Source: Dietzia psychralcaliphila (GTDB taxonomy: Bacteria > Actinomycetota > Actinomycetes > Mycobacteriales > Mycobacteriaceae). Taken from it: a stretch of DNA of 64,000 bases. Shown in pieces: positions 11,761 through 20,276 of this stretch; position 1 is the stretch's first letter; each line of letters opens with the position of its first letter. The notes beneath the pieces were generated by a model. That model saw only the letters and a list, made by a program, of their open reading frames with translations, was not told the origin of the DNA and searched no databases. The stretch lies in NCBI RefSeq assembly GCF_003096095.1, contig NZ_CP015453.1, positions 3,162,001-3,226,000 on the forward strand. Reading direction: 5' to 3'. A program made the translations under genes and the position numbers.

Positions 11761-13920
11761 ATGACCGCATCCGCGACGCCCGACCCCTTCCTCCACCTCG
11801 AGGACGTCGACTCCGCCGGGGCCCTCGACTGGGTCCGCGAACGCAGCGACCGCACCGTGGCGGACCTGGCCTCCGGGCCGGCCGCCGAGTCCGCCTACGA
11901 ACGCGCCCTCGAGATCCTCGACGCCTCCGACCGCATCGCCTGGCCCGTCCTGCGGGGCCGATACGCCTACACCCTCTGGCGGGACGCCGATCATCCCCGC
12001 GGGCTGTGGCGCCGGGTTCCGTGGTCCGTTCTCGCGGGCGGTGCACCAGGGGTGGACCACCCCGCCTGGGAGACGCTCGTGGACGTGGACGCCCTGGCCG
12101 CCGAGGAGGGAGTGAACTGGGTCTATTCGGGAACGGTGGTGCGGCGCCCCGCCGACGACCGGGCGCTCATCCGGCTGTCCCGCGGGGGTGCGGACGCTGT
12201 GGAGGTCCGAGAGTTCGATCTGGCCGCCCGACGATTCGTCCCGGCGTCCGAGGGCGGGTTCCGATTGACCGAGGCCAAGTGCTCGGTGTCCTGGGTGGAC
12301 CGGGACACACTGCTGCTGTCCTCGCCGCTGGCCCCCGACGGTTCGGACGCCACCGAGTCCGGGTACGCCCGGTTGGCCCGGGTGTGGCGCCGCGGGACCG
12401 ACCCGCTCCAGGCTCCGGTGATCTTCGCCGGGGAACCCGAGGACGTGGCCGTGGGCGCCTCGTACGACCTCACCTCGGGCCGGTACACGGCCAGCCGCGC
12501 CCCCGACTTCCACACCTCCCAGGAGTGGTTCTGGGCTCCGGGCGTCGACCCCACGACCACGCGACCCCACCTGCTGCCGGTTCCCGAGGACTGCCGGGTG
12601 GGGTCCTGCGGGGACTGGCTGCTGCTGCGACCGCGCACCGATCTCGAGGTCTCGGGCCGTACCCACGCCGGCGGATCGATCCTGGTCCTGCCGTGGGCCG
12701 CGGTCGACGACGACCCCGCGCGTCTGCCCGAGCCGGTGGTCCTGTTCTCCCCCACCCCCTCCACCACCGTTGAGGACGTGACCTGGGGCCGGGGCCGGAT
12801 CCTGCTGACGATCCTCGACGACACCGAGTCCCGGCTCGAGGCGTTCACGATCCCCGACTCCGCGGACGGGTCGTGGGAGCCCCGACCCGTCGAGGGTCTT
12901 CCGGACCACGTCTCGGTGGACGTGCTGTCCTGCGACCGCCTGTCCGGCACCGACACGGGTGACGGTGAGGAGGGTGCCGACGACGAGCGCCCACATCCCG
13001 ACGACGCCGTCCTGGCGGTCTCCGGTCCGATCGTCCCGCCGTCGCTGGTGCTGCTGCGCGCGGACGGCACCACCACCACGCTCGGGTCCACCCCCGACCG
13101 CTTCGACACCACCGGTATCGAGGTCACCCGGCACACGGCGGTCAGTGACGACGGCACGCTGGTGCCCTACACCGTGATGCGCGGTCCCGGCCCCGACGGG
13201 CCGAGGCCGACCATCCTCTACGGCTACGGCGGGTTCGAGGTGTCCATGCGGCCCTCGTACGCGGCGTTGCGCGGGGAGCTGTGGCTCACCGGCGGGGGCG
13301 TCTACGTGGTGGCGGGGATCCGCGGTGGCGGCGAATACGGGCCCGCCTGGCACAAGGCGGCCGTCCGCGAGAACCGCCCCCGCGCGTTCGAGGACTTCGC
13401 GGCTGTCGCCCGGGACCTCGTCGACACGGGCGTGACCACACGCGATCAGCTCGGCGCGACCGGCGGGTCCAACGGCGGCCTGCTCATGGGCGTCATGCTC
13501 ACCCGGTACCCGGAGCTGTTCGGGGCGTTGGCGATCGCGGTTCCGCTCCTCGACATGCGCCGCTACCACCTGTTGCTGGCCGGGGCGTCCTGGATGGCCG
13601 AGTACGGCGACCCGGACTCCGCGGACTGGGACGACTTCCTCGGTGCGTACTCGCCGTACCAGCACGTCCGGCCCGCCTCGGAGGTCCGTTACCCGCAGGT
13701 CCTCATGACCACCTCGACCCGGGACGACCGAGTCCACCCGGGGCACGCCCGCAAGATGACGGCCGCGCTCGAGGCCGCGGGGCACGAGGTGGCGTACTAC
13801 GAGAACGTCGAGGGCGGCCACGCCGGCGCTGCCGACAACTCGCAGGAGGCCCGGAAGGCGGTCCTCACCTACGAGTTCTTCAGGCGTCGGCTACCTCGTC
13901 GTCGTCCAGTGACGGACTGA
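11761..13920 (+). CDS. Prolyl oligopeptidase family serine peptidase (S9A)
   Basis: A 719-residue peptidase with an N-terminal beta-propeller (about 80-430) and a C-terminal alpha/beta-hydrolase domain. The catalytic Ser is at 570 in TGGSNGGLL, the Asp at about 655 in STRDDRVHP and the His at 687 in EGGHAGA. Family members cut short peptides after Pro; some actinomycete members have other specificities. No signal peptide, so probably cytoplasmic. The gene is divergent from the 50-residue protein and its last 41 bases overlap the 3' end of the convergent alpha/beta hydrolase. M. tuberculosis has a homologue (Rv0457c, from memory) in the same relative place. Confidence 0.9.
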   Translation: MTASATPDPFLHLEDVDSAGALDWVRERSDRTVADLASGPAAESAYERALEILDASDRIAWPVLRGRYAYTLWRDADHPRGLWRRVPWSVLAGGAPGVDHPAWETLVDVDALAAEEGVNWVYSGTVVRRPADDRALIRLSRGGADAVEVREFDLAARRFVPASEGGFRLTEAKCSVSWVDRDTLLLSSPLAPDGSDATESGYARLARVWRRGTDPLQAPVIFAGEPEDVAVGASYDLTSGRYTASRAPDFHTSQEWFWAPGVDPTTTRPHLLPVPEDCRVGSCGDWLLLRPRTDLEVSGRTHAGGSILVLPWAAVDDDPARLPEPVVLFSPTPSTTVEDVTWGRGRILLTILDDTESRLEAFTIPDSADGSWEPRPVEGLPDHVSVDVLSCDRLSGTDTGDGEEGADDERPHPDDAVLAVSGPIVPPSLVLLRADGTTTTLGSTPDRFDTTGIEVTRHTAVSDDGTLVPYTVMRGPGPDGPRPTILYGYGGFEVSMRPSYAALRGELWLTGGGVYVVAGIRGGGEYGPAWHKAAVRENRPRAFEDFAAVARDLVDTGVTTRDQLGATGGSNGGLLMGVMLTRYPELFGALAIAVPLLDMRRYHLLLAGASWMAEYGDPDSADWDDFLGAYSPYQHVRPASEVRYPQVLMTTSTRDDRVHPGHARKMTAALEAAGHEVAYYENVEGGHAGAADNSQEARKAVLTYEFFRRRLPRRRPVTD

Positions 13921-14779
13921 GCGCCACCTCCCGGTCCATCCACGCCAGCACCCGGGCCACCACCTCGGCGGGCTTGCGCGCCCACGTGTTGTGGCCGAGC
14001 GCCTCCGGCTCCACCTCCAGGCTCGTCCGGGCGGCGGGCAGCATCGCCAGCAGGCCGCGGGCCGCGCTCTCGGGGGCGAGCGGGTCCTCGGCGATCACCA
14101 CCGACAGCGCCGGGACCGTCACGCGGGCCAGGCCTGCCCGGTAGTCGAGGTCGGCGCGCGCCGGCTGCATGGCGCCCGTGGCCGCGAGGCGGGACCAGTC
14201 GCTGATGCGGTCGGCCGGGATCCTGCCGCTCGCGCCGAAGAACTGTCCCGGCACGTGCCCCGCCAACCAGCCGATGGCGGGGAGCAGGATCGCGCCCAGG
14301 CGCAGGCGCCGGCCCACTCGCCGGGGATATCCGCGGTGAAACGGGGACTGCGCCGCCACCGCCACCAGGCCCACCACGCGGGGATCGTGCCGCGCCAGGT
14401 GATAGACCCCGATCTGGGCGCCCATGCTGTGGCCCAGAAGCACCACGCGCCGCACCCCGAGCTCGCGCTGGATCGCGTCCAACGCCAGCGGGACGTCCTC
14501 GGCGGCGCTCTCGTGGTATCCCGCCGCTCCCCCGCCGCGGCCGATGCGGTGGGTGCTCTCGCCCTGCCCCCGCAGCTCTGTGATCGCCACGTCCACCCCC
14601 CGGGCGGCGAGCGCCCGGGCCAGCGGGAGGTAGTACCGGGCGCCGACGGCGATGCCGGGCAGGACCAGGACGGCGGGTCTGCCGGAGTCCCGCGCATCGG
14701 CTTCCACGATCAACAGTGGGCTCGTGCTGCCGTCCGCGTGCCGGAGTTCGATCCGGTGGGGGTCGTCGGTCTTGGTCAT
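13880..14779 (-). CDS. Alpha/beta-fold hydrolase
   Basis: A 299-residue hydrolase of the serine-esterase/lysophospholipase type. The nucleophile elbow GHSMG has Ser118; an oxyanion-loop region LPGIAVGARYY lies at 40-50, and the C-terminal His is in ALGHNTWARKP. Substrate unknown. The frame is open from 14891, but the ATG at 14779 begins where the fold begins; no strong Shine-Dalgarno is seen. Its C-terminal coding end overlaps the prolyl oligopeptidase gene tail to tail by 41 bases, so both ends are under double constraint. Confidence 0.8.
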   Translation of the reverse strand: MTKTDDPHRIELRHADGSTSPLLIVEADARDSGRPAVLVLPGIAVGARYYLPLARALAARGVDVAITELRGQGESTHRIGRGGGAAGYHESAAEDVPLALDAIQRELGVRRVVLLGHSMGAQIGVYHLARHDPRVVGLVAVAAQSPFHRGYPRRVGRRLRLGAILLPAIGWLAGHVPGQFFGASGRIPADRISDWSRLAATGAMQPARADLDYRAGLARVTVPALSVVIAEDPLAPESAARGLLAMLPAARTSLEVEPEALGHNTWARKPAEVVARVLAWMDREVALSPSLDDDEVADA

Positions 14780-14874
14780 GTGTACAGGATGCCGCAGCCC
14801 CCTGCCCGATCCGCACTCGACCCGACCCCTCCGCACGCCGCCGCCCATCTCCACGCCGCTGCCCGCCCGACGAC

Positions 14875-14915
14875 GACGGACCCCGCCCCACGCATGTGGT
14901 GGGACGGGGTCCGTC
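14875..14915 (-). terminator. Terminator of the mycolyltransferase gene
   Basis: GACGGACCCCG (14875-14885) pairs perfectly with CGGGGTCCGTC (14905-14915), with further inner pairing around CGCATG. It lies 38 bases past the mycolyltransferase stop. Confidence 0.8.
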
Positions 14916-14952
14916 GGAGCCGGGACCGGAGAGGGGCCCTCGCGTCAGCCGA

Positions 14953-16062
14953 TCAGATCGGGCCGTAACGCGCGTTCATCGCCTGGGCCATCATCGGCCA
15001 GGACTGCTTGAGGTCGTCCTCCCAGTAGCCCCACGAGTGCGTGCCGTTGGGCGCGAAGTCGAACTGGGCCGGGATCTGCAGCTCACCGAATCGGCGGGCC
15101 AGGTTGGCCGTGCAGTACTGCGTGGCCGCCTCGATGATTCCGCCGACGATCGCCTGGTTGGCGAGTGCCGGGATGCTGTTGCGCAGACGCCAGTTCTCCA
15201 GGGACTCGTGCGGGCCGGGCAGGCCGTTGCCGGTGGAGATGAACATGGCCGGCAGGGTGCCGTTGTCGCGCTGGGCGACGAACTTGTGCGCCTGGGCGAC
15301 CGGGTCGTTGGCCACCCAGCCCGGACCCGGGTACGGGCCCCACATGTTGTCGAGGTTGGCGCCACCACGCATGCCGGTGACGATGTTGATGAACTGGTAG
15401 CCGATCGGGGTCGACGTCTCGGCACAGCCGGAGTACGACCCGATGGCCTGGAAGCGGCCCGGGTGGTTCTGGGCGATCGTCAGGACCGACGTGGCGGTCA
15501 TCGAGATCGCGGCGAGGCTGCGCTTGCGGTTCTGGTAGTTGCCGCCGTATCGGCCCTCGAAGAGGTTCGGGAGCTCCTGGGCGAGGTAGGTCTCGAACGC
15601 CATCGGGCGGTCGGTCTCGCGGGCGTAGCGGGTCTGGACGTTGGGATCGTGACGCTGCCAGTCCGTGTAGTAGGAGAAGGCACCACCGATCGGGGTGACG
15701 GTCCATACGTCCTTGTCGGCCATGAAGGCCTTGACGTCGGACTGCGCCTGCCAGGTGGCGGAGTCCTCGCCGCCGCCGGCGCCGTTGACCAGGTAGAGGA
15801 CCGGCGCGCCGGCGTTGCCGTCACGCGGGCGCTGCACGATGTTGGGAACCTCGATGGCCATCTTGTCCGACCACACCGACACGATCAGTCGACCGTCGGG
15901 GAGCTGGGTCTCGACGACCTTGTTCTGGGCCGTGGCCTTGGAGTACTGGATGCTGCCACCCTGGGCCTGGGCCGTGCCCGTGGCAACGACGGGGACCATG
16001 GCCGCGGCGATGGCCGCGGCAGCGACCTTGGTGCCCAACCGGCCGCTCTTGACTGAACGCAT
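14953..16062 (-). CDS. Secreted mycolyltransferase, antigen 85/esterase D family
   Basis: Mycolyltransferases move mycolic acids between trehalose esters, arabinogalactan and, for some corynebacterial members, small outer-membrane proteins. The 369-residue precursor has a signal peptide (Arg/Lys-rich start, hydrophobic 13-29, cleavage after AQA at 31-33). The mature alpha/beta hydrolase keeps the nucleophile Ser187 in AAISMTATS and the His342 in GTHSWGYWE, as in antigen 85. The ATG at 16062 is chosen because the signal peptide starts there; AAGG lies 11 bases upstream. It is transcribed alone, with terminators on both sides, next to the PorA/PorH-like genes. I infer that it could be the enzyme that acylates those peptides (as MytC does in C. 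glutamicum), but trehalose or cell-wall mycolylation is equally possible. Confidence 0.9.
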   Translation of the reverse strand: MRSVKSGRLGTKVAAAAIAAAMVPVVATGTAQAQGGSIQYSKATAQNKVVETQLPDGRLIVSVWSDKMAIEVPNIVQRPRDGNAGAPVLYLVNGAGGGEDSATWQAQSDVKAFMADKDVWTVTPIGGAFSYYTDWQRHDPNVQTRYARETDRPMAFETYLAQELPNLFEGRYGGNYQNRKRSLAAISMTATSVLTIAQNHPGRFQAIGSYSGCAETSTPIGYQFINIVTGMRGGANLDNMWGPYPGPGWVANDPVAQAHKFVAQRDNGTLPAMFISTGNGLPGPHESLENWRLRNSIPALANQAIVGGIIEAATQYCTANLARRFGELQIPAQFDFAPNGTHSWGYWEDDLKQSWPMMAQAMNARYGPI

Positions 16063-16381
16063 ATTCCGACGCCTTACCTTCTCGTTGTTCACAGACGGAC
16101 CCGGGCAGACCCTCGCTTGAAAGCTAACCCGATTCCCAGTAGTCACACAAGTCCCACTAAGCACAGCTTTTACTCAAGCATGCGTGCAGGACCGAGTCTT
16201 GCGCCCGCCGGGCACCCTCCGAGGATTCCATACCCGGGTGGCCCGCAGGTAACCGCGGAACCGCCCTTGCGGCTCACGTCAACATTATCGACGCTACCCG
16301 GCCGCCCGTTACCGATATGAACAAATCCCGATACACACTCCACAGGGCGGGTGCGGGCACCACGCCGGACGGGGTACGAGA
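16063..16381. other. Gene-free upstream region of the mycolyltransferase
   Basis: About 320 bases with no convincing gene. The part from 16120 to 16200 is clearly less GC-rich than its surroundings and should hold the mycolyltransferase promoter; I could not fix -10 or -35 boxes. Nothing else was recognised. Confidence 0.5.
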
Positions 16382-16410
16382 AAGGGCCCCGGGCGTGGCC
16401 CGGAGCCCTT
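16382..16410 (-). terminator. Terminator of the first cassette
   Basis: A 13-base stem with one mismatch and a three-base loop. Read on the minus strand it ends in GGGCCCTTTCTC, a short U tract. It lies 20 bases after the stop of the gene at 16430-16591. Confidence 0.8.
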
Positions 16411-16429
16411 CCTCGTGCAGCCGTACGAC

Positions 16430-16591
16430 TCAGGCCATGAAGCCGGCGTCGAAGGCCTCCTGGAAGTCACCGCCGGCGAAGTAGCCGATGCCCTTGACGA
16501 CGTTGTTGACGGCGCCGAGCAGTCCGCCCGCGAGGTCAACGAGACCCTTCGGGCCGAGCAGCTCGCCGACAGAACCGAGATCGATACCCAT
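16430..16591 (-). CDS. PorA-like 53-residue peptide, cassette 1
   Basis: A tiny gene with AGGAG six bases before the ATG and a terminator right after its stop. The product (MGIDLGSVGELLGPKG at the start) has Gly/Leu/Val-rich amphipathic stretches and ends YFAGGDFQEAFDAGFMA. Twelve of those last 17 residues are identical in the paralogue at 17256-17411. There is no signal peptide and no Cys, as in corynebacterial PorA and PorH, which form hetero-oligomeric channels in the mycolic-acid outer membrane and carry O-linked mycolate. The locus, between a mycolyltransferase and groEL2, is where I remember porA/porH in C. glutamicum. Assignment to the A type rests on gene order and is tentative. Confidence 0.75.
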   Translation of the reverse strand: MGIDLGSVGELLGPKGLVDLAGGLLGAVNNVVKGIGYFAGGDFQEAFDAGFMA

Positions 16592-16681
16592 GCTGTACTC
16601 CTAGAGAGGTGTGGTCCGGACAGATCCGGGCCGAAGTTGTTTTTCGGGGGGTCGGCTGCTTTACGCCGCAACCGGGGCGTT

Positions 16682-16699
16682 GGCCGTAGCGCTACGGCC
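16682..16699 (-). promoter_or_regulatory. Perfect 18-base palindrome between the two cassette-1 genes
   Basis: GGCCGTAGC/GCTACGGCC lies nine bases after the stop of the upstream small gene and about 90 bases before the start of the downstream one. In RNA it would form a stem that could partly terminate transcription or protect the upstream message from 3' decay. Cassette 2 has only 48 bases between its genes and no such element. Confidence 0.5.
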
Positions 16700-16708
16700 G
16701 GAAGCCGA

Positions 16709-16864
16709 TCAGAGAACGTCGACGTCGCCGCCGCCGAGGCTGCCGAGCGCGCCCAGCGCGTCGAGGGTGCCCTCACCCGTGAGCGAACCCGTGAAGCTGA
16801 CGGCTCCGTCGATGAGGTTCTTGACCGCGGTGAGCGCGGCGCTGATGGCGCTGAAGTCAGGCAT
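16709..16864 (-). CDS. PorH-like 51-residue peptide, cassette 1
   Basis: Preceded by GGGAG six bases before the ATG. The product starts MPDFSAISAAL, has an amphipathic helix and the block FTGSLTGEG at 24-32, and ends in a Gly/Asp-rich tail. Without gaps, 15 of 47 positions match the paralogue at 17460-17603, including MPDF, Ser8 and FTGSL-GEG. No signal peptide, no Cys. It is the upstream gene of cassette 1. By analogy with corynebacterial PorH it would be a subunit of an outer-membrane channel exported without a classical signal; the conserved Thr/Ser in FTGSL are possible mycolate attachment sites. This is inference from size, context and duplication. Confidence 0.75.
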   Translation of the reverse strand: MPDFSAISAALTAVKNLIDGAVSFTGSLTGEGTLDALGALGSLGGGDVDVL

Positions 16865-17179
16865 GTGTATCTCCCTTTGAAAGTGGTGCCCCGGCTCATG
16901 GGGCCAGGGTCAGCGTAATCTGAGTGGACCCGAAGTCAATTGTGACCTCGGTCTCGGTGGCGACCGGGGGACGCGAAGCCCGCTCAGAGCATCCATCGTG
17001 ACCCAGATCACTGGATGCAAGGAAACCCTAGCACCTTGATCTGCCTGCGCAAATACTATTGAGTCATCGACTTAATCAGGCGCATTAACTTTCCCTCACC
17101 AAGTCCGGGGTCCGTCGATGTCGCCTGGTCACCTCTAGGTCGATAAACATTCATCTAGACAAGCGCCCACAACACAGCG
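16865..17179 (-). promoter_or_regulatory. Cassette 1 upstream region with a CRP/GlxR-type site
   Basis: About 315 bases without a gene, AT-richer than the rest of the window (16980-17160). GTGA-N6-TCAC at 16998-17011 is the inner palindrome of the CRP/GlxR consensus, 134 bases upstream of the cassette-1 start codon, a reasonable place for cAMP-dependent control. Long A/T-containing stretches near 17040-17100 probably include the promoter. The -10 box was not fixed. Confidence 0.45.
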
Positions 17180-17215
17180 GTGCGGCCCGCGCGAGGGAGA
17201 TCGCGCGGGCCGCAC
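17180..17215 (-). terminator. Terminator of the second cassette
   Basis: A perfect 15-base stem (17180-17194 with 17201-17215) with a six-base loop, 41 bases past the stop of the gene at 17256. It separates the two cassettes into independent transcripts. Confidence 0.85.
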
Positions 17216-17255
17216 TCGGGTCGCCGAGGGCATGGCCGCCCCCGGCTAGCTCGGG

Positions 17256-17411
17256 TCACATCATGAAGCCGCCGGTGAAGGCTTCGTCGAAATCGCCTCC
17301 GGTGAAGTAGGCCAGACCGGAGAACAGGTCTCCGAAGGCGCCGAGGAAGTCGTTGACATAGCCGAGGGCGCCGCTGACGCCGGCGAGGGATCCGAACTCG
17401 GGGAAGAACAT
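17256..17411 (-). CDS. PorA-like 51-residue peptide, cassette 2
   Basis: TAGGAG lies six bases before the ATG. The product starts MFFPEFGSLAGVSG and is rich in Phe and Gly, with an amphipathic central helix, and ends YFTGGDFDEAFTGGFMM, the same C-terminal block as cassette 1. It has no signal peptide or Cys. It follows the PorH-like gene at 48 bases and is probably cotranscribed, followed by a strong terminator. It is more aromatic than its cassette-1 paralogue (eight Phe and two Tyr), so the two copies have diverged in the presumed membrane-facing part while keeping the tail. Confidence 0.75.
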   Translation of the reverse strand: MFFPEFGSLAGVSGALGYVNDFLGAFGDLFSGLAYFTGGDFDEAFTGGFMM

Positions 17412-17459
17412 GGTGTGCTCCTAGGTCTGCTGGGTGGGTATCCGGGTGATGGGCTGGCG

Positions 17460-17603
17460 TCAGTCGGCGCTGATGCTCGACACAGCCTCGAAGAAGTCGT
17501 TCATGCCCCCCTCGCCCCCCAGCGACCCGGTGAATGTGACGACGGCTCCGAGGATGTCGGTGATGCCTCCGAAGAGGTCGGACAGCTGACCGAAGTCGGG
17601 CAT
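17460..17603 (-). CDS. PorH-like 47-residue peptide, cassette 2
   Basis: Starts at an ATG with GGAG six bases upstream. The product begins MPDFGQLSDLFGG, contains ITDILGAVV as a hydrophobic face and FTGSLGGEG at 24-32, and ends with an acidic helix (NDFFEAVSSISAD). It shares MPDF and FTGSL-GEG with the cassette-1 paralogue. A longer open frame exists upstream to 17684, but the Shine-Dalgarno and the match with the paralogue fix the start. It is the first gene of cassette 2, lying 290 bases from the groEL2 stop on the same strand. Confidence 0.75.
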   Translation of the reverse strand: MPDFGQLSDLFGGITDILGAVVTFTGSLGGEGGMNDFFEAVSSISAD

Positions 17604-17829
17604 GGTGTTCTCCGTTCTCGTTTGCTCACGGCGCCCTCCGAGGCGCCTGAGGGCAACACTAAGAAGGACACACGTCCATGACAAGATCCGAAACCGGAGC
17701 TTTACCGCTGGTCACAGGCTATTTACGCATGGCCAATCAGATTACGTTCCTGTTACGGGCCCACCGGCCCCAACCGCGCCCCAACCGCGCGCTAGCCGCG
17801 CGCTAGCCGAACCCACAGACACGGAAATA
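17604..17829. other. Region between groEL2 terminator and cassette 2
   Basis: No gene is seen. The part from 17640 to 17760 is AT-richer and should hold the cassette-2 promoter. At 17768-17810 four 11-base units follow each other: two of CCCCAACCGCG and two of CGCTAGCCGCG type, the last one base short. Confidence 0.5.
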
Positions 17830-17871
17830 GGCCGTGGCCCGCACCGGAGTTCTCCGGTGCGGGCCACGGCC
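17830..17871 (-). terminator. groEL2 terminator
   Basis: A perfect 19-base stem (17830-17848 with 17853-17871) and a GTTC loop, 21 bases after the groEL2 stop. Confidence 0.9.
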
Positions 17872-17892
17872 CGGTGATCTGCGTGGGCTAGA

Positions 17893-19593
<1,701 letters not shown>

Positions 19594-19697: not shown

Positions 19698-19799
19698 GGG
19701 TGCGCCCCGGTGTTCGCGACGGGCGAACGACACGCACGGCCGTGCCCGGTCCCCTACCATCGAGACGCCATCACGCCCGTCCCCGTTGGAAGGCCAGTC

Positions 19800-20276
19800 A
19801 TGCCCACCGAGTCCACGCCCGTCGGCGCCATTGAGAGTTCGATCGAGATCGACGCCCCTCCGGCCCGGGTCTGGGAGGTCATCTCCGAGGTCCGCAACGC
19901 CCCTCAGTGGAGCAGTCAGGCACACAAGGTCGTCGCTCTCGGGGGCCGCACGACCGCCGGGACGAGGGCGCTCAACATCAACAAGCGCGGTCCGCTCTTC
20001 TGGCCCACCACCAGCCGCGTGGTCGAGTTCGAACCCGGTCGACGGTTCGCCAACCGCATCACCGAGAACACCACGGTCTGGGTGTTCGAGCTCGAACCCA
20101 CCCCGGGCGGCGGCACCCGCCTCACCGAGCGTCGCGAGGTCCCCAGCGGACTGACCTTCATCTCCAAGTTCCTCACCGACAAGCTCTTCGGCGGCCAGCC
20201 CTCGTTCACCAAGGAGATGGACAAGGGCGTGTCAACGTCACTGAAGCGGATCAAGGCACTCGCCGAGCAGGGCTGA
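19800..20276 (+). CDS. SRPBCC (START-like) family protein
   Basis: A 158-residue protein with the typical opening IESSIEIDAPPARVWEVISEVRNAPQWS, strands in the middle and a long C-terminal helix ending in LKRIKALAE, the fold of SRPBCC proteins that bind a hydrophobic ligand. GGAAGG six bases before the ATG sets the start. The ligand is unknown. The following lipoprotein gene starts five bases after its stop, so the two are probably cotranscribed. It is divergent from groEL2. Confidence 0.82.
   Translation: MPTESTPVGAIESSIEIDAPPARVWEVISEVRNAPQWSSQAHKVVALGGRTTAGTRALNINKRGPLFWPTTSRVVEFEPGRRFANRITENTTVWVFELEPTPGGGTRLTERREVPSGLTFISKFLTDKLFGGQPSFTKEMDKGVSTSLKRIKALAEQG

Follow-up and report, generated by a model that had tools for sequence, protein, structure and literature searches.

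The window analysed here is a 64,000-nucleotide stretch of the 3.9 Mb genome of Dietzia psychralcaliphila (contig NZ_CP015453.1, positions 3,162,001 to 3,226,000); coordinates are counted from its first letter. On its minus strand, between groEL2 and a mycoloyltransferase gene, lie four open reading frames (ORFs) of 47, 51, 51 and 53 codons that form two cassettes, each with an H gene followed by an A gene. The groEL2-proximal cassette 1 is led by H1 (17460..17603), which encodes a 47-amino-acid (aa) leaderless acidic peptide, MPDFGQLSDLFGGITDILGAVVTFTGSLGGEGGMNDFFEAVSSISAD, and its second gene is A1 (17256..17411), which encodes a 51-aa leaderless acidic peptide. Cassette 2 consists of a 51-aa homologue of H1, H2 (16709..16864), and a 53-aa homologue of A1, A2 (16430..16591). 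All four ORFs have a purine-rich Shine-Dalgarno (SD) sequence about 6 bases before the ATG. The first-pass annotation of this DNA had described four genes of 47–53 codons with an SD sequence six bases before the ATG, and each was recovered at the position it gave, on the minus strand. Genes this small are easily missed.

The two H peptides have MPDF and FTGSL-GEG in common, as had been noted, but the earlier count of 15 identities is too low: there are 16 shared positions without gaps and 17 identities when the sequences are aligned. The corresponding count for A1 and A2, 12 identities across the last 17 residues, was reproduced. By inspection of the four sequences, no leader is evident; Lys and Arg number 0–2 per peptide, with none within the first 14 residues, which agrees with the predicted lack of a signal peptide. 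H1 and A1 together have 13 acidic residues and 0 Lys/Arg, and H2 and A2 together have 12 and 3. The amphipathic moment of all four peptides exceeds that of shuffled sequences (p 0.0065–0.038), and PorH of C. glutamicum gives p 0.0005 in the same test. AlphaFold2 (AF2) predicts H1 as two helices, residues 4–28 and 33–46 (mean predicted local distance difference test score, pLDDT, 73), and A1 as helical (mean pLDDT 68). Pfam has no match for any of the four products, and a sequence search of the PDB with H or A returned nothing relevant.

Conservation of the H-A pairs across Dietzia

A search of titled genomes with an H profile gave nine loci, all of them in Dietzia, including D. maris IMV 195T, D. 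natronolimnaea, D. cinnamea and D. massiliensis. Among 23 genomes of the genus (profile searches, E 0.1), H matched in 21 and A in 21, and one match per search lies within a long unrelated frame (H in G006, A in G021). The interval from groEL2 to the mycoloyltransferase gene was analysed in 20 of the 23; G006 and G017 break off at or within groEL2, and G021 is without a groEL2 match. We filtered these intervals for ORFs of 30–110 codons on the groEL2 strand that begin with ATG, follow an SD sequence and contain no more than 12% Lys, Arg and His. This yielded 68 ORFs. Every one is an H or an A, always in the order H then A, making 34 pairs.

Two cassettes are present in 12 of the 20 genomes, three in one genome (G019) and a single cassette in seven. 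An H2/A2-type cassette occurs in 19 of 20, and six of the single cassettes are of this type; the lone cassette of G022 is too diverged for its type to be assigned. G022, a diverged Dietzia relative, has two tandem mycoloyltransferase genes, 73% and 68% identical to the gene in the window, and its interval as filtered took in the first of them.

Gly26 and Ser27 are invariant among 22 aligned H sequences, as are Y37, F38, G40, G50 and F51 among 21 A sequences. The ratio of nonsynonymous to synonymous substitution rates (dN/dS) is less than 1 in all 15 Dietzia comparisons, to which no significance test was applied. For cassette 1 the values are 0.07–0.26 (H1) and 0.05–0.27 (A1) in seven comparisons together, and for cassette 2 they are 0.34–0.59 (H2) and 0.51–0.67 (A2) in eight. 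Because H-A pairs occur throughout the genus, in 20 of 20 intervals, with dN/dS below 1, the four ORFs are real genes.

Cassette 1 has the lower dN/dS although H2/A2 is more widely present, and cassette 2 evolves faster. Two weak DNA matches elsewhere in the source genome were set aside as ordinary-looking coding sequence without an H-A pair, and plasmid records contained no near DNA match.

Neighbouring genes

The upstream neighbour of the cassettes is the chaperonin gene groEL2 (17893..19515, minus strand), a synteny anchor in common with corynebacterial por loci. On the other side is a mycoloyltransferase gene (14953..16062, minus strand), whose product has an N-terminal signal-like sequence, a PF00756 domain and a putative triad, S187, E311 and H342, that aligns with S189, E310 and H341 of MytC. 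The first-pass annotation had placed the cassettes between a mycolyltransferase gene and groEL2, and this arrangement holds in all 20 Dietzia intervals, with a mycoloyltransferase homologue adjoining the cassettes in each genome. The cassettes are not followed by ppk2; a Cmt1-type gene comes after them in 20 of 20 genomes.

Among solved structures, the enzyme in the window scores best with Cmt1 (182 bits; 4H18, 8QHF), followed by PS1 (101) and Ag85A (93). As controls, we scored two of the five other mycoloyltransferase matches in the source genome. The first favours Ag85A (176 versus 98 for Cmt1), and the second leans slightly to Cmt1 (134 versus 121 for PS1), making it a weaker second candidate. 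A mycoloyltransferase tree had weak support and an odd root. By sequence, the neighbouring enzyme is of the Cmt1/MytC type.

Cmt1 and MytC are one protein, the product of cg0413 (passages of PMC12632848, PMC7775120), which is described as mycoloylating PorA and PorH (parts of PMC12632848, PMC11927696, PMC5310785). The portion of PMC11927696 that we draw on reports mycoloylation of PorA by MytC in vitro, with trehalose monomycolate as the donor, and that of PMC12632848 states that surface assembly of PorH requires mycoloylated PorA or PorH. According to the relevant part of PMC11066868, the serines that become modified follow no strict motif and are found where the chain is flexible and Ser/Gly-rich.

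Three genes lie farther out, with no evident link to the cassettes: a prolyl oligopeptidase (11761–13917, plus strand), an alpha/beta hydrolase (13883–14776, minus strand) and a polyketide-cyclase-like gene (19782–20273, plus strand).

Hairpins and conserved upstream blocks

The earlier claim that a strong hairpin ends each cassette was borne out by folding. The hairpin 3ʹ of A2 (16376..16416, minus strand) is single, has a T-rich 3ʹ side and is a probable terminator (60 nt, −41.6 kcal/mol, z −6.75); a second scan found it too. The hairpin 3ʹ of A1 (17178..17218, minus strand) is accompanied by a second at 17223–17246, both together giving −58.2 kcal/mol over 86 nt (z −4.7); they have no T run and may also act as terminators. 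A third hairpin, 3ʹ of groEL2 (17829..17872, minus strand; 68 nt, −50.6 kcal/mol, z −8.9), divides groEL2 from cassette 1.

Alignment of 20 Dietzia upstream regions revealed a promoter-like block 5ʹ of H2 (16912..16946, minus strand) made up of GTCACAATTGAC, about 16 nt and TACGCT, which is diverged in G022. The block conserved 5ʹ of H1 (17656..17733, minus strand; 12 upstream regions aligned) contains GCGTAAA, GTGACCTGCGGT and TTAGTGT and is unlike that of H2. A scan for the sigma-70 consensus found no promoter, the block upstream of H2 included. Since the upstream blocks of H1 and H2 are both conserved yet different, the two cassettes are likely to be transcribed separately, with the blocks as putative promoters.

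Relation to PorA, PorH and PorACj

We read one genus in our collection (g3) as Corynebacterium because PorACj matches over the cut-off occur in it and one of its genomes encodes a protein 100% identical to C. glutamicum PorA. When a C. glutamicum PorA sequence was compared with 242 genomes of this genus (E 0.05), 35 matched, one of them (G448) at 100% identity. At 30 PorA loci in Corynebacterium, groEL2 is present at 29 and a PorH-like ORF precedes PorA at 28; in G448 (L277), PorH lies before PorA, and groEL2 is upstream. A tandem porH-porA-porH-porA array occurs in G493 (L283, 589–1623), and G346 (L207) has a similar one. The locus had been described as a duplicated, diverged set. This is correct for Dietzia, where 13 of 20 genomes carry at least two cassettes, but the duplicated porH-porA genes of these two Corynebacterium genomes mean that duplication is not unique to Dietzia.

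A profile search against PorA, PorH and PorACj had been proposed for the four products, and its outcome was mixed: PorACj aligns with A1 and H1, but A2 does not align with PorACj, and PorA and PorH are not matched directly. We compared profiles with hhalign, using 25 of 31 PorA and 24 of 29 PorH sequences (those left out include near-duplicates and forms with a long N-terminus). The core of A1, DFLGAFGDLFSGL, aligns with the PorACj family: the A1–PorACj comparison gave 93% (E 3e-7), the reversed profile scored 16.8 versus 33.5, and 0 of 160 column shuffles were as good. H1–PorACj gave 90% (reversed 18.6 versus 30.1), and all H sequences together gave 54%. PorACj in turn gave 60% with PorA and 80% with PorH, and corynebacterial PorH and PorA gave 13.6 with each other (0 of 60 shuffles as good). 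Cross-matches between H and A from iterated profiles were set aside, and H1 and A1, tested separately, gave 80%. Over 401 genomes, the NCBIfam model NF038022 was above its cut-off in eight, all of genus g3, and the best match outside was A1 of a Dietzia genome (G003), with 23.3 bits. For cassette 1, these comparisons support a chain at sequence level from A1/H1 through PorACj to PorA/PorH; they do not support direct membership. A direct PorA match to A1, expected from a look-alike stretch, was not supported by profile comparison (4%). Gene order is the only basis for taking H as the counterpart of PorH and A as that of PorA.

Function of the H-A pairs

What is the function of the H-A pairs? 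We propose that the products of the four genes are mycomembrane peptides, all small, acidic, helical and amphipathic and with no leader, that work as two pairs and are probable channels lipidated by the adjacent enzyme; we consider this model probable as a whole. A PorH/PorA-like identity is strongly supported by context and remotely by sequence, given the position by groEL2, the lack of a leader, the amphipathicity, the strict pairing, the Cmt1-type neighbour and the lack of an MspA match. Of the earlier claim that the genes are PorH/PorA-like, the size, leaderless form, groEL2 context and pairing stand, and recognition by profile as PorH or PorA does not.

Each H-A pair would most likely form an alpha-helical hetero-oligomeric channel, as is thought for PorH-PorA of C. 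glutamicum, for which a five-by-five model is described in part of PMC12632848. The adjacent Cmt1/MytC-type enzyme would most likely O-mycoloylate H and A on Ser/Gly-rich stretches and so anchor them in the outer membrane. Candidate sites are Ser8 or Ser13 of A1, Ser7 of A2 and the invariant Ser27 of H. AF2 places this Ser27 beside a Gly-rich turn, close to where the first predicted helix ends, which agrees with the setting of known modified serines. Because the sequences are acid-rich with few Lys or Arg, cation selectivity is predicted. For the Dietzia peptides, we infer export, lipidation, pore formation, stoichiometry, selectivity and differing roles of the two cassettes.

Several observations weigh against this model. 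Profile comparison found no significant direct similarity to PorA or PorH: hhalign gave 4.0 for A1–PorA (5 of 60 shuffles as good), 4.1 for A–PorA (2 of 60), 3.2 for H1–PorH (2 of 60) and 17.4 for H–PorH (0 of 60). The PorACj alignment was built from five sequences chosen from the eight genomes over the cut-off, and its match spans 15–23 columns of amphipathic helix, for which convergence is possible; the pooled A sequences gave 26% with it, and A2 gave 2.5% (7 of 100 shuffles as good). With NF038022 (cut-off 28 bits), A1 scored 16.3 and H1 12.7, and A2 and H2 had no match. PorA of C. glutamicum fails the amphipathicity test (p 0.153), and the AF2 models are monomers of middling confidence. 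The second Cmt1-leaning paralogue could be the protein-modifying enzyme instead. The search for channel families in Dietzia covered MspA, not DUF3068 or PorB/PorC, and a 2022 paper, citing 2014 work, assigns Dietzia channels to the MspA superfamily in the passage that we cite (PMC9233653).

That assignment, together with the pore-forming protein purified from D. maris, whose gene is unnamed in the genome note (PMC4901239), argues for an alternative explanation in which another protein (MspA-like, DUF3068 or other) is the main Dietzia channel and the mini-pairs, although they may still form channels, play a minor or conditional part. None of 23 Dietzia genomes, 15 of which are at least 90% complete, gave an MspA (PF09203) match over the cut-off; G009 has one sub-threshold match. 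In the wider family, 156 of 201 genomes, a set including some Dietzia, were over the cut-off, which indicates that the search works; PF09203 was found in none of 14 named control genomes. The Dietzia genomes do not bear out the statement in PMC9233653, and we regard another main channel as unlikely, though it is a serious contender. As Dietzia gave no MspA match, the best candidates for the role of main permeability channel are its H-A pairs. Within the literature on Dietzia porins, conductance and mycoloylation, the parts available to us include no paper naming the H or A genes.

Alternatively, the peptides could be mini-proteins of the mycomembrane or cell wall that are modified by the Cmt1-type enzyme and are not porins but structural, anchoring or surface peptides. 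The lack of direct PorA/PorH similarity fits this explanation, as do the roughly 30 proteins, varied in function, that part of PMC11066868 lists as candidates for O-mycoloylation in C. glutamicum. It accounts poorly for the strict pairing in 34 of 34 cassettes and for a groEL2 locus that is the same as that of porHA, and with no MspA match it leaves the need for a channel; we think it rather improbable. Still less probable, and in our view very unlikely, is that the peptides exert an effect on the chaperonin or the heat-shock response, or that they are small regulatory or toxin-like peptides placed after groEL2 by chance. The groEL2 neighbour is constant, and short hydrophobic peptides can look like type I toxins, but a very strong hairpin divides the cassettes from groEL2, the cassettes have upstream blocks of their own, Rfam has no family at the gathering threshold in 14800–18600, and the genes are always paired beside a Cmt1-type gene. 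Finally, that these very short ORFs without a Pfam match are spurious products of G+C-rich intergenic DNA is already refuted by frames, starts and SD sequences conserved throughout the genus with dN/dS below 1.

Similar ORFs in other mycolata

The A profile has weak matches in five genomes of other genera, where short leaderless ORFs have a D-F/L-x-G-x-x-x-D-x-F core. These ORFs (e.g. MFDLAFLSDFFGAFSDLFGALDFFSGSADA; L103–L107, at about 1450–1620 in each) have the core and a final F-x-G-S in common with Dietzia A and H. Matches to the H profile gave further mini-ORFs, among them MPDFSTLGDLFSAIGDIFGGIGTLSSLSA in G096 and, in two genomes that belong to a single genus, MPTIGFGDISDFLGAFADLFGFLDFISGSVEGLSAE. 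Comparisons of A with mini-ORFs that the A profile had itself picked out are circular and carry no weight here. Judged from ORF lists, SD-preceded mini-ORFs lie downstream of groEL2 in 11 of 15 Corynebacterium and 5 of 23 other-genus genomes, and 4 of the 23 have, downstream of groEL2 and on its strand, a homologue of the Dietzia enzyme. Because earlier matches guided part of the choice of genomes, the fractions are not rates.

We also examined 18 mycoloyltransferase loci from genera other than Dietzia and Corynebacterium, chosen as the best matches to the Dietzia enzyme (242–351 bits), with Cmt1 itself not compared. Around them, 11 mini-ORFs were found in 55.6 kb versus 2 in a 160 kb control of 20 arbitrarily placed regions from 10 genomes, among which G034, the source of 3 of the 11, is not represented. 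Two genomes, both from a single genus, account for eight of the 11; at least one mini-ORF is present at 5 of the 18 loci, and one of the 11 looks spurious. In one genus, many leaderless mini-ORFs lie near groEL2 and mycoloyltransferase genes (L233, L250 and L270 in G079; L249 in G034), some alike between both genomes; G034 has no MspA match. In G069 (L234), about 1.2–2.8 kb past groEL2, three SD-preceded ORFs of 28–30 codons, all with an MGS start, flank a Dietzia-like mycoloyltransferase gene.

Many mini-ORFs of other genera do not evidently resemble H or A, and hence a single family is not proven. It is possible, although we stop a little short of favouring the idea, that a mycolata-wide class of leaderless O-mycoloylated mini-proteins is encoded near groEL2 and/or dedicated Cmt1-type enzymes. 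Corynebacterial PorA, PorH and PorACj would be one branch of this class, and the Dietzia locus would unite chaperonin, porin pairs and lipid-attaching enzyme, with the pairs replacing MspA.

Implications

The H and A genes are concrete candidates for the Dietzia cell-wall channel, in conflict with the printed statement of an MspA-like one. Protein mycoloylation outside Corynebacterium is called an open question in the part of PMC5310785 that we cite, which also mentions mytC orthologues in Nocardia, Gordonia and Rhodococcus, not all of them active in C. glutamicum. In Dietzia, putative porin genes adjoin the type of enzyme that lipidates C. glutamicum porins, which makes such mycoloylation directly testable. 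The locus also offers new species in which to study the route of leaderless proteins to the mycomembrane, and our survey suggests that mini-genes of this kind exist in more genera of mycolata.

Comparison with known systems

MspA porins (PF09203) would be expected to do the same job in the mycomembrane, but they are Sec-exported beta-barrels, unlike the Dietzia mini-proteins. The PorACj family (NF038022; C. jeikeium and relatives) is leaderless, it is encoded downstream of groEL2, and it has the core D-F-[LI]-G-x-[FL]-G-D-L-F-S-G-[LI] in common with A1. However, PorACj is described in part of PMC3792995 as a single 40-aa homo-oligomeric anion-selective peptide, whereas the Dietzia peptides are acidic pairs that score below the family cut-off. 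Of the proteins with a solved structure, Cmt1/MytC (4H18, 8QHF) matches the neighbouring enzyme best, with the triad aligned.

There is also a likeness to PorH-PorA of C. glutamicum (cg3009-cg3008), which are likewise tandem leaderless acidic peptides of fewer than 60 aa, with groEL2 upstream and H before A, and which are mycoloylated by Cmt1. The two systems differ in that the por genes lie between groEL2 and ppk2 in those Corynebacterium species that PMC5944148 compares, whereas the Dietzia cassettes lie between groEL2 and a Cmt1-type gene, and in cassette number, which is at least two in 13 of 20 Dietzia genomes. Moreover, cmt1 of C. glutamicum (cg0413) is far from porHA by locus number, whereas in Dietzia the Cmt1-type gene is physically linked to the mini-genes.

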